This document shows positions 1 through 8,512 of a stretch of 64,000 nucleotides of DNA, in pieces. Position numbers and translations under genes: made by a program. This DNA is from Curtobacterium sp. MCLR17_036 (GTDB taxonomy: Bacteria; Actinomycetota; Actinomycetes; Actinomycetales; Microbacteriaceae), in NCBI RefSeq assembly GCF_003234445.2, contig NZ_CP126269.1, positions 1,178,001 through 1,242,000 on the forward strand, read 5' to 3'. The number at the start of each line of letters is the position of its first letter. The first letter of the stretch is position 1. The notes below the pieces were generated by a model. That model ran no database searches and was not told where the DNA came from. It worked only from the letters and a program-made list of their open reading frames with translations.

Positions 1-392
1 CCGCGCTCGACACCCCGCCGCTCTACGTGCAGGGCCTGTCGGTCTCGAGCAAGTCGAAGCACCTCGCCACCGCCGAGGCGTTCGCGGCGTTCATGACGAA
101 CGCGAAGAACCAGGAGGCGTTCGCCCACCAGGTCAACATCTTCCCGTCCACCACGTCGTCGCAGTCCGACCCGTACTTCTCGAAGGACGACGGCACCGTG
201 AACGGCGAGGCCCGGGTCCTGGCGAACGAGGCCCTGAAGAGCGCGAAGGTCATCAACCCGGTCGAGGCGAACTCCGCGATGACGGACTTCCTCGACCAGC
301 AGATCGCCCTCGCGATGAAGGGCCAGGTCTCGCCGGAGAAGGCACTCCAGACGGCGCAGACCAAGATGAACAGCCTGCTGGCCAACGGCTGA
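1..392 (+). CDS. Sugar ABC transporter solute-binding protein, C-terminal fragment
   Basis: The reading frame is open from the window edge to a TGA at 390-392, so this is the C-terminal part (about 130 residues) of a protein that starts upstream. It runs SSKSKHLATAEAFAAFM through an Asn/Gln-rich helix and ends ALQTAQTKMNSLLANG, the usual tail of family-1 extracellular sugar-binding lipoproteins (UgpB/MalE type). The stop overlaps the ATG of a permease by one base, so it is translationally coupled to the importer. The sugar cannot be read from this fragment. The downstream mannosidases and endoglycosidase suggest oligomannose or Man-GlcNAc glycans, which is inference from context. Confidence 0.85.
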   Translation, partial: ALDTPPLYVQGLSVSSKSKHLATAEAFAAFMTNAKNQEAFAHQVNIFPSTTSSQSDPYFSKDDGTVNGEARVLANEALKSAKVINPVEANSAMTDFLDQQIALAMKGQVSPEKALQTAQTKMNSLLANG

Positions 393-1270
393 TGCGCGCC
401 AACCGCTGGTTCACGCCCTGGCTGCTCGTCCTGCCGGCCCTCGTCTGGCTCGTCGCGTTCAGCCTCTGGCCGTCGATCAACACCGTCCGGCTGTCGTTCA
501 CGAACGCCAGCCCGCTGGGGGGCGTGAGCCAGTGGGTGGGCGTCAGGAACTTCGAGACCCTGCTCGCCGACCCGCAGGTGTGGGAGGCGCTGCTCAACAG
601 CGTCATCTACATGGCGGTCTGCCTGCCCCTGCTCACCGTGCTGCCGCTGCTCATCGCGGTGCTCGTGCAGCAGAAGCTGCCCGGGATCGCGTTCTTCCGC
701 ACGGCGTTCTACACGCCGGTCATCGCCTCGGCGGTCGTCGTCGGACTCATCTGGACCTGGATCCTCGACGACCGCGGCGTCATCAACGAGATGGCGCAGG
801 CGCTCGGCGTCGTGCAGGGCAGCGTCCCGTTCCTGACCGACCGGTGGCTGCTGCTCCTCAGCGCGATCAGCCTGACGGTCTGGAAGGGCCTCGGCTACTA
901 CATGATCATCTTCCTGGCCGCCCTCGGGAACGTCGGCAAGGACCTGCACGAGGCCGCCGCGCTCGACGGCGCCGGCGCGGTCCGCCGGTTCTGGTCGGTG
1001 ACGATGCCCGGCGTCCGCGGCACCATGACGCTCGTCGGGATCCTGGTGTGCGTCTCCGCGCTCCGGGTGTTCAGCGAGCTCTACATCCTCACCAACGGCA
1101 CCGGTGGGCCCGGCGGGCAGGACAACTCGCTCGTCATGCTCATCCAGCAGTACGCCCGCGGCTTCACCGGCAACCTCGGCTACGCGTCCGCCCTGAGCCT
1201 CCTGCTCTTCGTCGTGACGCTCATCCCGATGCTCGCCCTCGCCCGGATGAACAGCAAGGCGGACAAGTGA
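392..1270 (+). CDS. Carbohydrate ABC transporter permease, MalF/UgpA type
   Basis: This is a 292-residue inner-membrane permease of an ABC sugar importer. It begins with a cytosolic MRANRWFTPW and a first membrane helix at about 10-30, followed by five more hydrophobic segments. The family EAA loop, which docks on the ATPase, lies in EAAALDGAGAVRRFWSVTMP (about residues 189-208). The start ATG overlaps the stop of the binding-protein gene, and its own stop overlaps the GTG of the next permease (GTGA), so the three genes are one translationally coupled unit. No ATPase gene is present in the window. Such systems often share an MsiK-type ATPase encoded elsewhere, which is family knowledge. Confidence 0.93.
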   Translation: MRANRWFTPWLLVLPALVWLVAFSLWPSINTVRLSFTNASPLGGVSQWVGVRNFETLLADPQVWEALLNSVIYMAVCLPLLTVLPLLIAVLVQQKLPGIAFFRTAFYTPVIASAVVVGLIWTWILDDRGVINEMAQALGVVQGSVPFLTDRWLLLLSAISLTVWKGLGYYMIIFLAALGNVGKDLHEAAALDGAGAVRRFWSVTMPGVRGTMTLVGILVCVSALRVFSELYILTNGTGGPGGQDNSLVMLIQQYARGFTGNLGYASALSLLLFVVTLIPMLALARMNSKADK

Positions 1271-2235
1271 CGAACACGACCAGCACGACCGAACCCGTCG
1301 TCGGCGGCGCGCAGGGTGCTGCCAGCCCGACGCCGGACGGGACCGGCGCGACCGACGCGGGACGGGCCTCCAGGCAGAACGGACGCAAGCGCCGCCGCGC
1401 GGTCTGGGGCGTCATGTCCACCCGCGAGAAGGTCCTGCGCTACGCGCTGCTCATCGTGGTGCTCTTCATCACGATCGGGCCGTTCCTGTGGCAGCTGTCC
1501 ACCTCGCTCAAGGGCGCCGGCGAGGACATCTACACCGCGAACCCGTCGTTCATCCCGACCGAGCCGACCTTCGAGAACTACCTCAAGGTCGCCGCCGCGA
1601 TCCCGGTCTGGCGGTACATCGGCAACTCGCTGCTCGTCGCCGCGATCGACGTCTTCGGCAACATCGTGTTCGCGACGCTCGCCGGCTTCGCGCTCGCGCG
1701 GCTGCAGTGGCGGCACCGCAAGCTCGTGCTCGGCCTGTTCCTCGCCACGCTCGTGCTGCCCGGCGAAGCGACGATCATCTCGCAGTTCGTCACCGTCAAG
1801 GACCTCGGCCTCGCCGACAACCTGGTCGGTGTCGCCCTGCCCGGCATGATCGCCGCGCTCAACGTGCTGCTCATGTTCAACGCGTTCCGGCAGATCCCCG
1901 AGGAGATCGACCAGGCCGCCGTCATGGACGGCGCCAACGCGATGCAACGCCTGCGGTACATCGCGCTGCCCGCCGTGCAGGGGACCATCGCGGTCATCGC
2001 GATCTTCTCGTTCATCGGCGCGTGGGACGACTTCCTGTGGCCGCTCATCGTGCTGCAGTCGCCGGAGAACCTCACCCTGACCGTCGGGTTGCAGTACCTG
2101 CAGGGCACGTTCGCGACCGACCAGCGCATGATCGCCGCCGGCACCATGATCGCGTTCATCCCGATCGCCGTGATCTTCGCGGTCCTGCAGCGCTTCTTCT
2201 TCAAGGGAGTCGAAGAGGGCGGTGTGAAGGGCTGA
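1267..2235 (+). CDS. Carbohydrate ABC transporter permease, MalG/UgpE type
   Basis: This is the second permease half (322 aa), starting at GTG 1267, whose TG is shared with the TGA of the first permease. The first 50 residues are a Thr/Gly/Ala-rich, probably disordered cytosolic extension ending in a basic patch (RKRRR), longer than in typical MalG. Six membrane helices follow. The EAA motif is EIDQAAVMDGANAMQRLRYI, followed by the usual I-LP-A-P-like loop. It pairs with the upstream permease to form the channel. Its stop codon overlaps the ATG of the following glycosidase gene, so importer and intracellular hydrolase are made together. Confidence 0.93.
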   Translation: MTNTTSTTEPVVGGAQGAASPTPDGTGATDAGRASRQNGRKRRRAVWGVMSTREKVLRYALLIVVLFITIGPFLWQLSTSLKGAGEDIYTANPSFIPTEPTFENYLKVAAAIPVWRYIGNSLLVAAIDVFGNIVFATLAGFALARLQWRHRKLVLGLFLATLVLPGEATIISQFVTVKDLGLADNLVGVALPGMIAALNVLLMFNAFRQIPEEIDQAAVMDGANAMQRLRYIALPAVQGTIAVIAIFSFIGAWDDFLWPLIVLQSPENLTLTVGLQYLQGTFATDQRMIAAGTMIAFIPIAVIFAVLQRFFFKGVEEGGVKG

Positions 2236-3716
2236 TGCGCTTCGGGGTCAACTACACGCCCTCGGTCGGCTGGTTCCACTCGTGGCTCGACTTCTCGCCG
2301 GCGGACACCGCCCGGGACCTCGAGGCGATCGCGTCGCTCGGCGCCGACCACGTGCGGATCTTCCCGCTCTGGCCCGTCGTCCAGCCGAACCGGACGCTCA
2401 TCCGGGCCTCGGCACTGCAGGACGTCGCCACGGTGGTCGACATCGCCCGGTCGTTCGGGCTCGACGTCAACGTCGACGCCCTGCAGGGGCACCTGTCGAG
2501 CTTCGACTTCGTGCCCTCGTGGCTGGACAGCTGGCACCGCCGCAACATGTTCACCGATCCGGACGTCGTCGCGTCGACCGCGGCGTACGTCCGGGCGCTC
2601 GCCGCGGCGGTCGCGGACAAGCCCAACCTGCTCGGGATCACCATCGGCAACGAGGTCAACCAGTTCGCACACGCGCCGCACCCCGCGCCGCACACGATCA
2701 CGGCGGAGCAGGGGCACGCGTGGGCGGCGGCGATGGTCGCGGCGGCGCGGGCCGGACTGTCGTCCGGTTCGTCCGGCACGTCCGGCCCGTCGTCCGGCCC
2801 GTCGTCCGGCCCGTCGTCCGGCCCGTCGTCCGGTCCGTCGTCCGGTCCGTCGTCCGGTCCGTCGTCCGGTCCGTCGTCCGGTTCGTCGTCCGGTCTGGAG
2901 GCGCGGCTCGGCGCCGACACGTCTGCCCGGCCCGGCACCGGGTCGCGTCCCGGTCCGCTGGTCACCGTCGCGCAGTACGACGCGGCCTGGTACGACGACG
3001 CGCAGCCCTTCGGCCCGGCGCACGCGGCGGACCACGGCGACGCCACGGTCACGCACTCGTGGGTGTTCAACGGCTCGGCGGCGCTGCACGGCGCACTCGG
3101 GGCCGGGTCGGTGCGGCACGGGGAGTACCTGCTCCAGCTCGCCGCCGCCTGGAACCGCGACGCGGAGCGGCCGAACTGGCTGCAGGAGGTCGGCGCCCCC
3201 ACCAACGTCGTCGACCCCGCCGACGCCGCGTCGTTCACCGAGCAGACCATCCGGCACGTGCTCGACGCGCAGCAGGTGCTCGGCGTCACGTGGTGGTGCT
3301 CGCACGACGTCTCGCGGAGCCTCGCCGACTTCCCCGAGCTCGAGTACGACCTCGGGCTGTTCACGAACGACGGCCGGCTGAAGCCCGCAGGCGAGGCGTT
3401 CGCCGCCATCGCCCGCGCCGGCGACACCGGGCCGACATCGCCACCGTCGACGGCACTCGTCCTCGACGACGTACTGCCCGACGGCGCGGTCCGCCACGGC
3501 ACCCGCGCGGACTGCGCCCCCGGCGGCCGGTTCGCCGCCGCCTGGCTCGCCCTCGCCGGTACGGCAGCCGACGGCCGCGGCCCGCAGGTCGTGCTCCGTT
3601 CCCGACTCGCCGACCACGCACTCCGCTCGGCGCGGGGGATCACGACCATCGTGGAGGTGCCCGACCACCTCGACGGCACCACGCTCACCGTCGCACACCC
3701 CGCGACCATGCCCTGA
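2235..3716 (+). CDS. Cytosolic clan GH-A glycosidase (GH5-like, probable beta-mannosidase)
   Basis: This 493-aa protein has no signal peptide. It begins MRFGVNYTPSVGWFHSWLDF and has a TIM-barrel layout: strand-4 acid/base at N139-E140 in GITIGNEVNQF, and probable nucleophile E322 in WLQEVGAP. These are the two catalytic Glu residues of clan GH-A. The N-terminal YTPS-GW motif and HVRIFPLWPVVQPN recall the GH5 subfamily 18 beta-mannosidases that act on Man-beta-1,4-GlcNAc, the core of N-glycans. The subfamily call is recognition from memory, not a search. The gene overlaps the permease stop by one base and precedes a GH38 alpha-mannosidase. A 49-residue run of Gly-Pro-Ser-Ser repeats interrupts the barrel between the acid/base and nucleophile strands. 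Confidence 0.82.
   Translation: MRFGVNYTPSVGWFHSWLDFSPADTARDLEAIASLGADHVRIFPLWPVVQPNRTLIRASALQDVATVVDIARSFGLDVNVDALQGHLSSFDFVPSWLDSWHRRNMFTDPDVVASTAAYVRALAAAVADKPNLLGITIGNEVNQFAHAPHPAPHTITAEQGHAWAAAMVAAARAGLSSGSSGTSGPSSGPSSGPSSGPSSGPSSGPSSGPSSGPSSGSSSGLEARLGADTSARPGTGSRPGPLVTVAQYDAAWYDDAQPFGPAHAADHGDATVTHSWVFNGSAALHGALGAGSVRHGEYLLQLAAAWNRDAERPNWLQEVGAPTNVVDPADAASFTEQTIRHVLDAQQVLGVTWWCSHDVSRSLADFPELEYDLGLFTNDGRLKPAGEAFAAIARAGDTGPTSPPSTALVLDDVLPDGAVRHGTRADCAPGGRFAAAWLALAGTAADGRGPQVVLRSRLADHALRSARGITTIVEVPDHLDGTTLTVAHPATMP
2760..2906 (+). repeat. In-frame 12-bp tandem repeat encoding Gly-Pro-Ser-Ser
   Basis: A 12-base unit close to TCCGGTCCGTCG is repeated about ten times. The first copies end TCCGGC and later ones TCCGGT, then it degrades to Ser-rich sequence. 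It lies in frame in the glycosidase gene and encodes residues 176-224 as (GPSS)n. Because the unit is a multiple of three, copy-number changes would alter loop length without a frameshift. Confidence 0.95.
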
Positions 3717-3776
3717 CCTCCCACCCCGCCCTGCTGCCGGCAGCGACGCCGGCCCCTTGCGTCCCGGAAGGACCCC

Positions 3777-6700
3777 ATGCACGACGACATCCCCCTGACC
3801 ACCGGACGCGCCCGACGGGTCCTCGACGAGCGGATCACCCCCGCGGTGCACGCGACCACGGCGGCGTTGGAGACCGCCTGGCACGAGCTGCCGGGGGAGC
3901 CGATCCCGCCGACCGAGGGACTCGCGCTCGCCTTCGAGCCCTACGAGGTCGGCACCCCGTGGGGCGCGGCCTGGGGCACGACGTGGTTCCGGCTGACCGG
4001 GACGGTGCCGACCGAGTGGGCCGGACGCCGGGTCGAGGCCGTGATCGACCTCGGCTTCGACAAGAACATGCCCGGGTTCCAGTGCGAGGGGCTCGTGTAC
4101 CTGGCCGACGGTACCCCCGTGAAGTCGATCAACCCGCGCAACCAGTGGGTCCTGGTCACGGAGCGGGCCGAGGGCGGCGAGACGGTCGAGCTCTTCGTCG
4201 AGGCCGCATCGAACCCCGTCCTGCTCGACTACCACCCCTTCCTGCCGACGCAGGAGGGCGACGTGCAGACCTCGTCGTCGAAGCGCCTGTACGCCACCCG
4301 CCGCATGGAGCTCGCCGTCTTCGAGTCCGAGGTGCACGACCTCGCCCTCGACGTCGACGTCCTGCTCGAGCTGCAGGCCGAGCTGCCCGCCGGGCCCCGC
4401 CGCATGCGGATCCTGCAGGCCCTCGACGACGCCCTCGACCGGCTCGACCTGCAGCACATCGCGGAGACCGCCGGCGACGCCCGCGCGGCACTCGCCGACG
4501 TGCTCGCCGCCCCGGCCGAGGCGTCCGCCCACACCATCTCGGCGATCGGGCACGCGCACATCGACTCCGCGTGGCTCTGGCCCGTGCGCGAGACGATCCG
4601 CAAGGTCGCCCGCACCACGTCGACCATGACCGAGCTCATCGACCAGACCGACGACTTCCTCTACGGCATGTCGAGCGCCCAGCAGTACGCGTGGATCAAG
4701 GAGCACCGCCCCGAGGTCTACGCCCGGGTCAAGGCGGCGGTCGAGGCCGGCCGGTTCCTGCCGATCGGCGGCATGTGGGTCGAGTCCGACACCGTGATGC
4801 CCACCGGTGAGAGCATCGTCCGCCAGTTCTCGCAGGGGCAGCGGTTCTTCGAGCGCGAGTTCGGCATCCGGCCGAAGGGCGTCTGGCTGCCGGACAGCTT
4901 CGGGTACTCGCCGGCGCTGCCGCAGCTCATGCGCCGCGCGGGCTTCGAGTGGTTCTTCACGCAGAAGATCTCGTGGAACCAGGTGAACAAGTTCCCGCAC
5001 CACACGTTCCTGTGGGAGGGCATCGACGGGTCGCGGGTGTTCTCGCACTTCCCATCGATGGACACCTACAATTCGCGGCTGTCGGGCAGCGAGGTCGCGA
5101 AGGCCTCCCGCCAGTTCCGCGAGAACCGCCTGGCCACGGGGTCGATCGCCCCGGTCGGCTGGGGCGACGGCGGTGGTGGCACCACCCGCGAGATGACCGG
5201 CACCGCTGCACGCCTCGCCGACCTCGAGGGCAGCGCGAAGGTCCGCTGGGAGCACCCGGACACGTTCTTCGACCGCGCGAAGGCCGAGCTGACCGACCCG
5301 CCCGTGTGGGTGGGGGAGCTGTACCTCGAGCTGCACCGGGCCACGCTCACGTCGCAGCACGGCACGAAGCAGGGCAACCGCCGGTGCGAGCAGCTGCTCG
5401 TCGAGGCCGAGCTCTGGGCAGCGACCGCCGCCGCCCGCACCGACTTCACCTACCCGTACGACGAGCTCGACGCCCTGTGGCAGCAGGTCCTGCTCCAGCA
5501 GTTCCACGACATCCTGCCGGGCACCTCGATCGCGTGGGTGCACCGCGAGGCGGTCGCGAAGTACGCCGAGACGGCCGCGGCGCTCACCGCGATCATCGAG
5601 CAGGCGCTCTCGGCGCTCGCCGGTGCCGGGGAGGCGGCCGTCGTCGTGAACCCGGCCCCGTTCCTCCAGGCCGGCGCACCCGCGCAGGGCGCGGTCGTGG
5701 CGACCGACGTGGCGGCGGCGACCGCGGTGTCGCTGACCGAGCAGGACGGCGGGTACGTGCTGGCGAACGACCTGGTGCGGGTCGTCGTCGACGCGCAGGG
5801 GCTCGTGACGAGCGCCGTGGACCTGGCGACCGGGCGCGAGGCGATCGCGGCCGGCCAAGCGGCGAACCTGCTGCAGCTGCACCAGGACTTCCCGAACATG
5901 TGGGACGCCTGGGACGTCGACCGGTACTACCGGAACCGCGTCGAGGACCTGGTGTCGGCCACCGGGCTGACCGCGTCGGTCGACGGCGCCGGGGTCGCCC
6001 GGGTCGTCGTGTCCCGCGCCTTCGGTGACTCGACCGTCACGCAGGAGATCGTCCTGGCACCCGGCTCGCGCACGCTGGAGTTCGACCAGACCACCGACTG
6101 GCACGAGACCGAGAAGTTCCTCAAGGTGGCGTTCCCGCTCGACGTCCGCGCCGAGCACACCGTCGCCGAGACGCAGTTCGGCGCGCAGAAGCGGGTGACG
6201 CACACGAACACCTCGTGGGAGGCCGCGAAGTTCGAGACCTCGATGCACCGCTACGTGCTCGTGTCCGAGCCGGGCTTCGGCGTCGCGCTCGTGAACGACT
6301 CGATCCACGGCTTCGACACCACCCGCGACGCCGTCGACGGACACGTCACCACCACCGTGCGGCTGTCGCTGCTGCGAGCCCCGCGGTTCCCCGACCCCGA
6401 GACCGACCAGGGCGTGCAGACGCACCGGTACGGCATCGTCATCGGCACCGACCAGCTCGGTGCGACGGCAGCCGGCGTGGTGATGAACGCCGGCGCACGG
6501 ACGATCACCGGAGCGCACGGCTTCGACCCGCTGGTGCAGGTCTCCGGCGGGGTCGTGCTGTCGAGCGTCAAACTCGCCGACGACCGCTCGGGCGACCTGG
6601 TCGTCCGCGTGTACGAGCCGTCCGGGCAGCGGGGGACCGGCGGCATCGCGGTGTCCGAGGCCGAGGCCGGGGGCGCCGCGTTCGGTCCCGCTGCCGAGGT

Positions 6701-6803
6701 CACCCTGCTCGAGGAGCCGCTGCCTACCGGCTCCGTCGTCGACGCCTCGTCGTTCGCCGTCGACGCCTACGAGGTCCGCACCTTCCGCTTCCCACGCAAG
6801 TGA
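3777..6803 (+). CDS. Alpha-mannosidase, glycoside hydrolase family 38
   Basis: This 1008-aa cytosolic retaining alpha-mannosidase removes alpha-linked mannose from oligomannose glycans. The zinc site and nucleophile are visible: H261 and D263 in GHAHIDSAW, catalytic D373 in WLPDSFGYS, and H577 in QQFHDILPG, in the order H-x-D...D...H seen in family 38. An N-terminal beta domain (about 1-250), the catalytic barrel (250-510), a helical domain and C-terminal beta sandwiches follow the family plan, and the length is normal. No signal peptide is present, so it acts on imported glycans. The start has an AGGA-type ribosome site, and 60 bp separate it from the preceding glycosidase. It is probably one operon with the sugar importer. 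Confidence 0.96.
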   Translation: MHDDIPLTTGRARRVLDERITPAVHATTAALETAWHELPGEPIPPTEGLALAFEPYEVGTPWGAAWGTTWFRLTGTVPTEWAGRRVEAVIDLGFDKNMPGFQCEGLVYLADGTPVKSINPRNQWVLVTERAEGGETVELFVEAASNPVLLDYHPFLPTQEGDVQTSSSKRLYATRRMELAVFESEVHDLALDVDVLLELQAELPAGPRRMRILQALDDALDRLDLQHIAETAGDARAALADVLAAPAEASAHTISAIGHAHIDSAWLWPVRETIRKVARTTSTMTELIDQTDDFLYGMSSAQQYAWIKEHRPEVYARVKAAVEAGRFLPIGGMWVESDTVMPTGESIVRQFSQGQRFFEREFGIRPKGVWLPDSFGYSPALPQLMRRAGFEWFFTQKISWNQVNKFPHHTFLWEGIDGSRVFSHFPSMDTYNSRLSGSEVAKASRQFRENRLATGSIAPVGWGDGGGGTTREMTGTAARLADLEGSAKVRWEHPDTFFDRAKAELTDPPVWVGELYLELHRATLTSQHGTKQGNRRCEQLLVEAELWAATAAARTDFTYPYDELDALWQQVLLQQFHDILPGTSIAWVHREAVAKYAETAAALTAIIEQALSALAGAGEAAVVVNPAPFLQAGAPAQGAVVATDVAAATAVSLTEQDGGYVLANDLVRVVVDAQGLVTSAVDLATGREAIAAGQAANLLQLHQDFPNMWDAWDVDRYYRNRVEDLVSATGLTASVDGAGVARVVVSRAFGDSTVTQEIVLAPGSRTLEFDQTTDWHETEKFLKVAFPLDVRAEHTVAETQFGAQKRVTHTNTSWEAAKFETSMHRYVLVSEPGFGVALVNDSIHGFDTTRDAVDGHVTTTVRLSLLRAPRFPDPETDQGVQTHRYGIVIGTDQLGATAAGVVMNAGARTITGAHGFDPLVQVSGGVVLSSVKLADDRSGDLVVRVYEPSGQRGTGGIAVSEAEAGGAAFGPAAEVTLLEEPLPTGSVVDASSFAVDAYEVRTFRFPRK

Positions 6804-6831
6804 TCGATCCATCCACACGAGGAGGAACGCC

Positions 6832-7806
6832 ATGAAGAAGTCCACGAAGTTCGGCATCGCGACCGCACTGGTCGCCATGCTCGCGGCACCACTGGTGCCC
6901 GCCGCGGCATCCGCGGCGCCGTCCGCGTCCGGGGCGGCCCACGGCCACGGGCACGGTGCGTCCCACGGCGGACGCCCCGGGCACGGGCACGGGCACCACG
7001 CCGTCCCCACGAAGTCGGGGCCGACGAGCATCGCCTACGTCGAGGTGAACAACGACGAGCTCGCCAACGTCGGCCGGTACACGCTGGCGAACGGTGCGAA
7101 CGCGTTCGACGTGGCGATCATCTTCGCCGCGAACATCAACCGGGACGAGAACGGCAAGGCCGTCCTGTACGCGAACGAGAACGTGCAGCGCACCCTCGAC
7201 CAGGCCGCGACGCAGATCCGCCCGCTGCAGGCCAAGGGCATCAAGGTGACGCTCTCGGTGCTCGGCAACCACCAGGGCACCGGGCTGGCGAACTTCACCT
7301 CGAAGGCAGCCGCACGGGACTTCGCGGCGCAGGTGTCGGCGACCATCGAGAAGTACGGCCTCGACGGGGTCGACCTCGACGACGAGTACTCCGACTACGG
7401 CGTCGACGGCACCCCGCAGCCGAACGACCAGTCGATCGGCTGGCTCATCAGCGCGCTGCGCGCCGACATGCCGGGCAAGATCATCTCGTTCTATGACATC
7501 GGCCCGTCGTCCGACGCACTGAAGACCGCGAGCCCGTCGATCGGCAAGAAGCTCGACTACGCCTGGAACCCGTACTACGGCACCTACACGGCGCCGACGA
7601 TCCCGGGCCTGCCGAAGTCGAAGCTCTCCGCCGCCGCGGTCGACATCCAGAACACCCCGCAGGCGACGGCCGTCTCGCTCGCGCAGCGCACGAAGGCCGA
7701 CGGGTACGGCGTCTTCATGACGTACAACCTGCCGGACGGTGACGAGTCGGCCTACGTGTCGTCCTTCACGAAGGTGCTGTACGGACAGGCCGCGTCGTAC
7801 CGCTGA
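6832..7806 (+). CDS. Secreted endo-beta-N-acetylglucosaminidase, Endo H type (GH18)
   Basis: This 324-aa enzyme is predicted to cut between the two core GlcNAc residues of high-mannose N-glycans. A Sec signal peptide (residues 1-28, cleavage near ASA-AP) is followed by a His/Gly-rich stretch (37-57) and the catalytic domain. Its signature DGVDLDDE (178-185) fits the GH18 DxxDxDxE motif with catalytic E185. The flanking EYSDYG, PNDQS and YAWNPYYGTY closely resemble Streptomyces Endo H. A strong GAGGAGGA ribosome site precedes ATG 6832, only 28 bp after the mannosidase stop. It is the only extracellular enzyme of the island, and its product would be the substrate of the importer and the cytosolic mannosidases. 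The His-rich linker is unusual. Confidence 0.93.
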   Translation: MKKSTKFGIATALVAMLAAPLVPAAASAAPSASGAAHGHGHGASHGGRPGHGHGHHAVPTKSGPTSIAYVEVNNDELANVGRYTLANGANAFDVAIIFAANINRDENGKAVLYANENVQRTLDQAATQIRPLQAKGIKVTLSVLGNHQGTGLANFTSKAAARDFAAQVSATIEKYGLDGVDLDDEYSDYGVDGTPQPNDQSIGWLISALRADMPGKIISFYDIGPSSDALKTASPSIGKKLDYAWNPYYGTYTAPTIPGLPKSKLSAAAVDIQNTPQATAVSLAQRTKADGYGVFMTYNLPDGDESAYVSSFTKVLYGQAASYR

Positions 7807-7826
7807 CGCGTCCGTCCGGACGGCGA

Positions 7827-8270
7827 CCCGCGCCCCGTGCTCCCCGGCTCCGGCCTGGAGGCGCGGGGCGCGTCCGTCGTCGTGGTCCCGTTGGCTCCGG
7901 GGAGGCGTCGGTTTCTCCCCGCCCTTGACGGTTCCGGTTCGCAGACCCCGGCGATCGTGAACCGGAACCGTCATCTGCTGATTTCGGAACCGGGTCCGGC
8001 GCGTTCGACGCTCCGGTCGGCTCGACGCTGCTGCCCGCTCGGGGCTGCGGCACGGTGCGGCTCGCGCCCCGGGCTTCCCGGCTCCGGCCTGCAGGCGTGG
8101 GGCGGGTCCGTCCTCGTGGTCGCGTTGGCTTGGGGGAGGCATCGGTTTCTCGTCGCCCTTGACGGTTCCGGTTCGCAGGCTCCGGCGATCGTGAACCAGA
8201 ACCGTCATCTGCTGATGTCGGAACCGGGGCCGGCACGTTCGACGCCCCGGCCCGCTCGACCTTGCGGCCC
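7827..8270 (+). repeat. Two imperfect tandem copies of a 234-bp unit carrying a long palindrome
   Basis: Sequence from about 7827 recurs 234 bp later, from about 8061, with scattered substitutions. Each unit contains an inverted repeat with 14-base arms, GACGGTTCCGGTTC and GAACCGGAACCGTC. The first (7927-7940 with 7959-7972) is perfect and the second (8161-8174 with 8193-8206) has one mismatch. Each is followed by ATCTGCTGAT. The whole 7807-8524 interval holds no gene I can support. Because 234 is divisible by three, long spurious frames run through it. Confidence 0.85.
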
Positions 8271-8351
8271 GCTCGACGCTGCGGCCCGCTCGACGCTGCG
8301 GCCCGCTCGACGCTGCGGCCCGCTCGACGCTGCGGCCCGTTCGACGCTGCG
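8250..8351 (+). repeat. 17-bp minisatellite, six copies
   Basis: Six head-to-tail copies of GCCCGCTCGACGCTGCG start at 8250, 8267, 8284, 8301, 8318 and 8335. The middle four are identical, and the first and last each differ by one or two bases. A partial seventh copy follows. The array starts inside the end of the second 234-bp unit. Confidence 0.93.
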
Positions 8352-8512
8352 GTCCGCTCGTGTCCGTGGTGTGCTCGGCGTGCGGCGCGAGCACGACACC
8401 TGGCGTGGAAGCGACAGATCCCGCAGTGTCGCTGCGACCAGGCCGCCGAAGCGACAGCCTGCCGTGCATGTTCTTCGGTGATCCGTCGCTCCGGCGATGC
8501 GTGCTGCGGCCG

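Follow-up and report, generated by a model that had tools for sequence, protein, structure and literature searches.

A probable LacI-controlled operon for high-mannose N-glycan feeding in Curtobacterium sp. MCLR17_036

Described N-glycan loci and the layout of the Curtobacterium operon

According to the parts of PMC6160142 that treat it, N-glycan locus 1 of Cutibacterium acnes joins genes of glycoside hydrolase (GH) families 38, 5_18, 20 and 18 with sugar ATP-binding cassette (ABC) genes and a regulator. In the high-mannose cluster of Bifidobacterium longum (Cordeiro et al. 2022, as related in a passage of PMC10154615), an endo-acting enzyme comes first, followed by import and intracellular demannosylation with GH38 enzymes, three of which share one operon with a GH125 enzyme. 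Here, a locus at the start of a 64,000-nucleotide stretch of the Curtobacterium sp. MCLR17_036 chromosome (the window, genome positions 1178001–1242000 of a single contig of 3,635,022 bases) was analysed, for which a sequence-only reading had proposed a high-mannose N-glycan harvesting island. Judged from its genes and their distribution, the locus is very probably an operon under LacI control that serves feeding on high-mannose N-glycans.

The operon starts 0.9 kb before the window and was completed from 10 kb of upstream DNA of the same genome. Behind a divergent LacI-type regulator gene (genome 1175968–1176999, − strand) it encodes, all on the + strand, a sugar ABC solute-binding lipoprotein (SBP; start at genome 1177079, C-terminal part at window positions 1–392), two ABC permeases (392–1270 and 1267–2235), a predicted GH5_18 exo-β-1,4-mannosidase (2235–3716), a GH38 α-mannosidase (3777–6803) and a predicted secreted Endo H-type GH18 endo-β-N-acetylglucosaminidase (6832–7806). 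The SBP, permease and GH5_18 genes overlap by 1, 4 and 1 bases, and gaps of 60 and 28 bases precede the GH38 and Endo H genes, respectively; the same-strand, overlapping or closely spaced arrangement read earlier from the sequence was borne out by the frames at these positions.

In the pathway that we propose, secreted Endo H would cut the high-mannose chains of glycoproteins between the two core N-acetylglucosamine (GlcNAc) residues, and the released Man(n)-GlcNAc (Man, mannose) would be imported by the binding protein and the two permeases together with a shared MsiK/UgpC-type ATPase coded elsewhere. The α-mannose residues would be removed by the operon GH38, perhaps with a second GH38 and GH125 enzymes from elsewhere in the genome, the remaining Man-β-1,4-GlcNAc would be split by the GH5_18 enzyme, and mannose and GlcNAc would enter central metabolism. 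Since one GlcNAc stays on the protein after the Endo H cut, a chitobiase would be unneeded. Secretion, substrate and import specificity, the order of the cuts and induction are the parts of this scheme that we infer. The earlier proposal that the glycans are imported and fully dismantled inside the cell agrees with the genes, their order and their co-occurrence, but it would need an ATPase, and perhaps further α-mannosidases, whose genes were found outside the operon.

Compared with the C. acnes locus as presented in those parts of PMC6160142, the Curtobacterium operon likewise has GH38 and GH5_18 genes side by side, an importer, a regulator, the GH5_18 active site and a GH18 endo-type gene. 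The C. acnes GH18, for which EndoT is the listed homologue, has no secretion signal, whereas in Curtobacterium the N-terminus of Endo H looks signal-like, and the GH20 gene of the C. acnes locus has no counterpart in the Curtobacterium operon. The pathway resembles that of B. longum, except that only one GH38 gene lies in the Curtobacterium operon and the other GH38 and the GH125 genes lie elsewhere. In many Streptomyces-type GH5_18–GH85–GH38 operons the order LacI, SBP, permeases, GH5_18, GH38 is the same, with GH85 where Curtobacterium has Endo H. Xanthomonas campestris (Dupoiron et al. 2015, as cited in passages of PMC10154615 and PMC6160142) is likewise a plant-associated N-glycan user, but with a GH2 β-mannosidase rather than GH5_18 (PMC6160142) and with GH92 and GH29 enzymes on plant complex N-glycans (PMC10154615). 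The latter source states that no GH18 or GH85 enzyme active on plant N-glycans had been reported, which suggests that high-mannose chains, of plant or fungal origin, are the likely target here.

The view that such a set is known from gut bifidobacteria proved too narrow, since the C. acnes locus has been published and many other actinobacteria have the core operon. The sequence-only reading knew of no description in a plant- or soil-type Microbacteriaceae, and no description of the locus in Curtobacterium or in this family was found in the open-licence PMC literature. Passages of PMC11475409 and PMC10303725 (Subtercola) mention GH5_18, GH85 or GH92 and no such operon, and PMC8565777 tabulates GH18, GH38 and GH92 counts, with no N-glycan locus in the passages concerned. 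The novelty is modest: loci of C. acnes and B. longum are already published, GH5_18–GH38–importer operons are widely distributed among actinobacteria, and the PDB already includes a GH5_18 structure from Microbacterium.

Enzymes and importer

The sequence-only reading had recognized a clan GH-A enzyme with a GH5_18-like N-terminus, a GH38 enzyme with a full zinc site and a secreted Endo H-type enzyme, and had asked for a subfamily check of the first. All three family assignments were confirmed, with scores far beyond chance. The nine best PDB sequences for the GH-A enzyme matched with E values of 3.9e-130 to 3.4e-93, while the next one, 7bob, reached only 1.2e-17. Among these relatives, most of which are labelled GH5_18 in their PDB titles, are ScGH5_18, the GH5_18 of Microbacterium oxydans, enzymes from B. 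longum and the C. acnes exo-β-1,4-mannosidase. BlMan5B, too, we take to be a GH5_18 member. The entry 6gvb is a GH5_18 enzyme according to a passage of PMC6160142, which also lists the active-site and dimer residues of the C. acnes enzyme CaMan5_18. The complete active-site set (R41, S88, N139, E140, H215, W217, E259, and W295) is retained in the window enzyme, 8 of 8, with an offset of +59 past a repeat insert, and 11 of the 12 dimer residues are identical, the exception being T99, replaced by S. Its acid/base is E140 and its nucleophile E318. The PDB titles show that 7lr8 and 7lr6 were crystallized with Man-β-1,4-GlcNAc; 7lr8 is the E153A mutant of the Streptomyces cattleya enzyme, and E153 aligns with E140 of the window enzyme.

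The general Pfam GH5 model gave only a weak match (20.4 bits vs. the cut-off of 23.5), and the NCBIfam profile scan gave no match for this enzyme. An AlphaFold model built with 36 aligned sequences had a mean pLDDT (predicted local distance difference test) of 84.8, and GH5_18 structures took ranks 1–23 against it with target-normalized template modelling scores of 0.90–0.94. By sequence, fold and residues the enzyme is a GH5_18 member, predicted to split Man-β-1,4-GlcNAc, and the placement outside GH5_18 that would have counted against the sequence-only reading was not found; no signal peptide was seen in it, and its nearest named relatives by gene are from Curtobacterium.

In the operon GH38, the GH38N (300 bits), middle, C and C2 domain models all exceeded their cut-offs. 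The motifs GHAHIDSAW, WLPDSFGYS and FHDILPGTS were found at residues 258, 370 and 576, which we take to be parts of the zinc site. The nearest structures were 7ufr, 7ufu, 7ufs and 7uft, presumably B. longum enzymes (from 823 bits for 7ufr down to 690), followed by Ams1. No signal peptide was seen in this protein.

The Endo H-type protein scored 398.2 bits with the NCBIfam equivalog model NF045482 (curated cut-off 300) and 334 bits with 1edt over 264 aligned query residues. We take 1edt to be the Streptomyces plicatus Endo H. Common to both is also the DxxDxDxE motif, which is DGVDLDDE at residue 178 of the window protein and aligns with DGVDFDDE of 1edt. The equivalog match also ruled out that the enzyme is a chitinase; the chitinase of Curtobacterium sp. 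GD1 is described in a passage of PMC8565777 as a GH18 enzyme with a chitin-binding domain. The N-terminus looks signal-like by eye, and the enzyme may be secreted. Unlike 1edt, the Curtobacterium enzyme is encoded inside a catabolic operon and has a His-rich stretch (HGHGHG...HGHGHH, window 6937–7000) between the putative signal and the catalytic domain. Downstream of its gene, at window 7823–8360, there is a tandem duplication of 232–234 bp (88% alike) followed by an array of 17-bp repeats.

The full-length SBP matched SBP_bac_1 with 124 bits and has the lipobox LTGC (read by eye). Permease 1 matched BPD_transp_1 with 40.8 bits and a UgpA-type model under that model's cut-off; permease 2 is a 322-aa open frame with a GTG start, found by tblastn at the same place in relatives. 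No ABC ATPase gene lies inside the operon, a point that the sequence-only reading had not raised; one UgpC/MsiK-type ATPase exceeded its cut-off, at genome 3175584–3176657. Further genes that could serve the pathway are a second GH38 at genome 3234657, closest to 7ufs and near GH92 and a NagB-like gene, GH125 genes at 2287989 and 632715, and two NagA matches over the cut-off. A third, weak GH38 at 3003414 had no match among solved structures at E 1e-5 and was excluded from the model. Within 20 kb, the genome segment 3225000–3244500 combines an importer with GH92, the NagB-like gene and the second GH38. A second island at about 624800–633900, in the segment 616000–635999, carries a GH5_18 paralogue, SBP, GH3 and GH125 genes, with LacI-like and permease-like genes recognized by eye; this paralogue occurs in 10 of 66 Curtobacterium genomes.

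Distribution among genomes and alternative substrates

Endo H was present in 55 of the 66 Curtobacterium genomes, in 54 over the cut-off and in one (G010) as three sub-threshold pieces. GH5_18 matched in 57, two of which (G011 and G046) have the distant paralogue only. The operonic GH5_18 and Endo H occur in the identical 55 genomes; in 51 of these the two genes share a strand and are no more than 6 kb apart. Among 299 Microbacteriaceae genomes, Endo H exceeded the cut-off in 10 and GH5_18 was found in 19, and all 10 are within the 19 (Fisher p 7e-14, not corrected for descent); of the 21 genomes of this set with an Endo H match at E up to 0.001, the 11 with weak matches were counted as lacking it. 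Outside the genus, GH5_18 was found in 4/4 genomes with Endo H vs. 9/288 without it (p 2e-6, again not corrected for descent). In these four, Endo H lies 8–16 kb up- or downstream of GH5_18 on the same contig, suggesting a repeated association. A GH92 gene stands between them in two of the four, the only two scanned for it, and in one (G286) no SBP or permease relative was seen in the 20 kb examined.

Related loci were compared in the best 79 of 215 relatives, which are mostly Streptomyces and are not a census. GH38 was found in 54 of them, SBP in 70, Endo H in 12 and a GH85 relative in 17 (3 confirmed by Pfam, the others assigned by tblastn); no locus had both endo enzymes and 50 had neither. 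GH85 lies between GH5_18 and GH38 in 12 of its 17 loci. These counts indicate that many actinobacteria share the core of the operon, with an endo enzyme that varies. Gene order, co-occurrence across genomes and the replacement of Endo H by GH85 in relatives support the view that the genes serve one pathway.

The importer, GH5_18 and GH38 might instead handle another mannose oligosaccharide, such as β-manno-oligosaccharides or fragments of fungal α-mannan, with Endo H as a mere neighbour. This would suit the Streptomyces locus L027, where GH5_18 and an importer are accompanied by GH3- and ROK-like genes (by eye) and no GH38, and the three Curtobacterium genomes in which Endo H lies elsewhere. 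The C. acnes relative, which splits Man-β-1,4-GlcNAc, also cuts manno-oligosaccharides slowly (a passage of PMC6160142). Nevertheless, we consider this explanation unlikely, as Endo H and operonic GH5_18 are either both present or both missing in 66/66 Curtobacterium genomes, four Microbacteriaceae outside the genus also have the pair, and GH85, another endo-type family, takes a place within the same operon at other loci.

Plants contain free N-glycans of the GlcNAc1 type, and the importer and cytosolic enzymes would take such glycans unchanged; free high-mannose glycans shed by plants could thus be the main food, with Endo H secondary. That Endo H accompanies operonic GH5_18 in all 55 Curtobacterium genomes, adjoining it in 51, makes this very improbable. 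Moreover, at least three related loci whose examined stretch lacks Endo H (L014, L015, and L017) come from genomes with Endo H elsewhere, so the first two, initially thought to be without it, offer this explanation no support.

Several observations weigh against high-mannose N-glycan feeding as the function of the operon. The closest solved structure to the SBP is 6wpm (99 bits), and none with a known N-glycan ligand is close. A promoter scan found none and terminator-like sites occurred only at chance level, so a single transcript is neither supported nor denied. The co-occurrence counts take no account of descent. Endo H stands apart from the operon in 3 of the 55 Curtobacterium genomes (on another contig in G024 and G042, 840 kb away on the same contig in G043), the contigs of G065 are too fragmented to place it, and the match in G010 is in pieces. 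Finally, 25 of the 79 related loci have no GH38 in the stretch examined and 50 have neither endo enzyme, although some of these stretches are short. Considering these loci and L027, GH5_18, alone or with an importer, is not by itself a sign of an N-glycan locus and does not define one.

Operator candidate, repeat insert and biological meaning

The gap between the LacI and SBP genes holds ACTATAGCGCTTTAGT and CTGAACCGGTTCAG. Either the palindrome ACTATAGCGCTTTAGT or a variant that differs from ACTAWASCGCWTTAGT at no more than 2 positions was found within 300 bases upstream of LacI at 50 of 59 loci; with up to 1 mismatch it was present at 44 of the 59, including 13/13 Curtobacterium-type loci. 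In the organism's own genome the pattern (up to 2 mismatches) matched at one place, as did a reversed control. It is likely a conserved local LacI operator, to be regarded as a candidate, and a wider LacI regulon was rejected in view of the single genomic site.

The GH5_18 gene carries a low-complexity insert that the sequence-only reading had not mentioned (window 2760–2920, + strand), in which a 12-bp tandem repeat encodes (SGPS)n plus SGLEARLG between α4 and β5. Tandem Repeats Finder placed the repeat at 2779–2895 (9.8 copies, 97% match). Residues 189–237 have pLDDT values mostly below 50 and are flanked by a helix (157–177) and a strand (242–245); from barrel topology the insert would lie opposite the catalytic face. 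A genome of the same species (G031) has a stretch of 42 residues vs. 70 in the window. Across 32 Curtobacterium-type loci, the distance from NQF to YDAAW varies between 57 and 106 residues, with the longest in the window (106; the next 90), and it is 42 and 48 in two other Microbacteriaceae. The insert is in frame in every locus compared and is probably tolerated rather than functional. A decaying GH5_18 gene, with a barrel broken by the expanding repeat and an operon that this strain is losing, is scarcely credible and was rejected: the insert is indeed the longest among the 32 loci, but it sits in the α4–β5 loop, the prediction is of high confidence over most of the barrel, and the frame and 8/8 active-site residues are kept.

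The sequence CTGGAGGCGCGG has 22 sites in the genome vs. 7 for a reversed control, with copies at window 2895 and 7855. The copy in the insert translates as LEAR, and G(L/R)EAR is found in 26 of the 32 Curtobacterium-type inserts. An inverted partner lies within 48 bases at 15 of the 22 sites with up to 3 mismatches and at 7 with up to 2, figures that have no chance control. The first impression of a mobile element inside the enzyme was abandoned, as the inverted partners resemble terminator-like hairpins instead.

Taken together, a tentative picture, which we hold as possible rather than probable, is that feeding on high-mannose glycans is nearly genus-wide in Curtobacterium, a genus of plant surfaces, and that its secreted Endo H may be able to strip glycans from plant or fungal glycoproteins on leaves. 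It would use an actinobacterial operon with one conserved LacI operator and a replaceable slot in which either GH85 or Endo H serves as the secreted endo enzyme, and the cytosolic GH5_18 of Curtobacterium would have a minisatellite-coded loop of strain-variable length. With this compact operon and its conserved candidate operator, a pathway studied in bacteria of skin and gut would extend to a common genus associated with plants, and two unrelated endoglycosidase families appear to be interchangeable within one type of operon. If the pathway is active on leaves, a common leaf bacterium could take sugars off plant or fungal glycoproteins.

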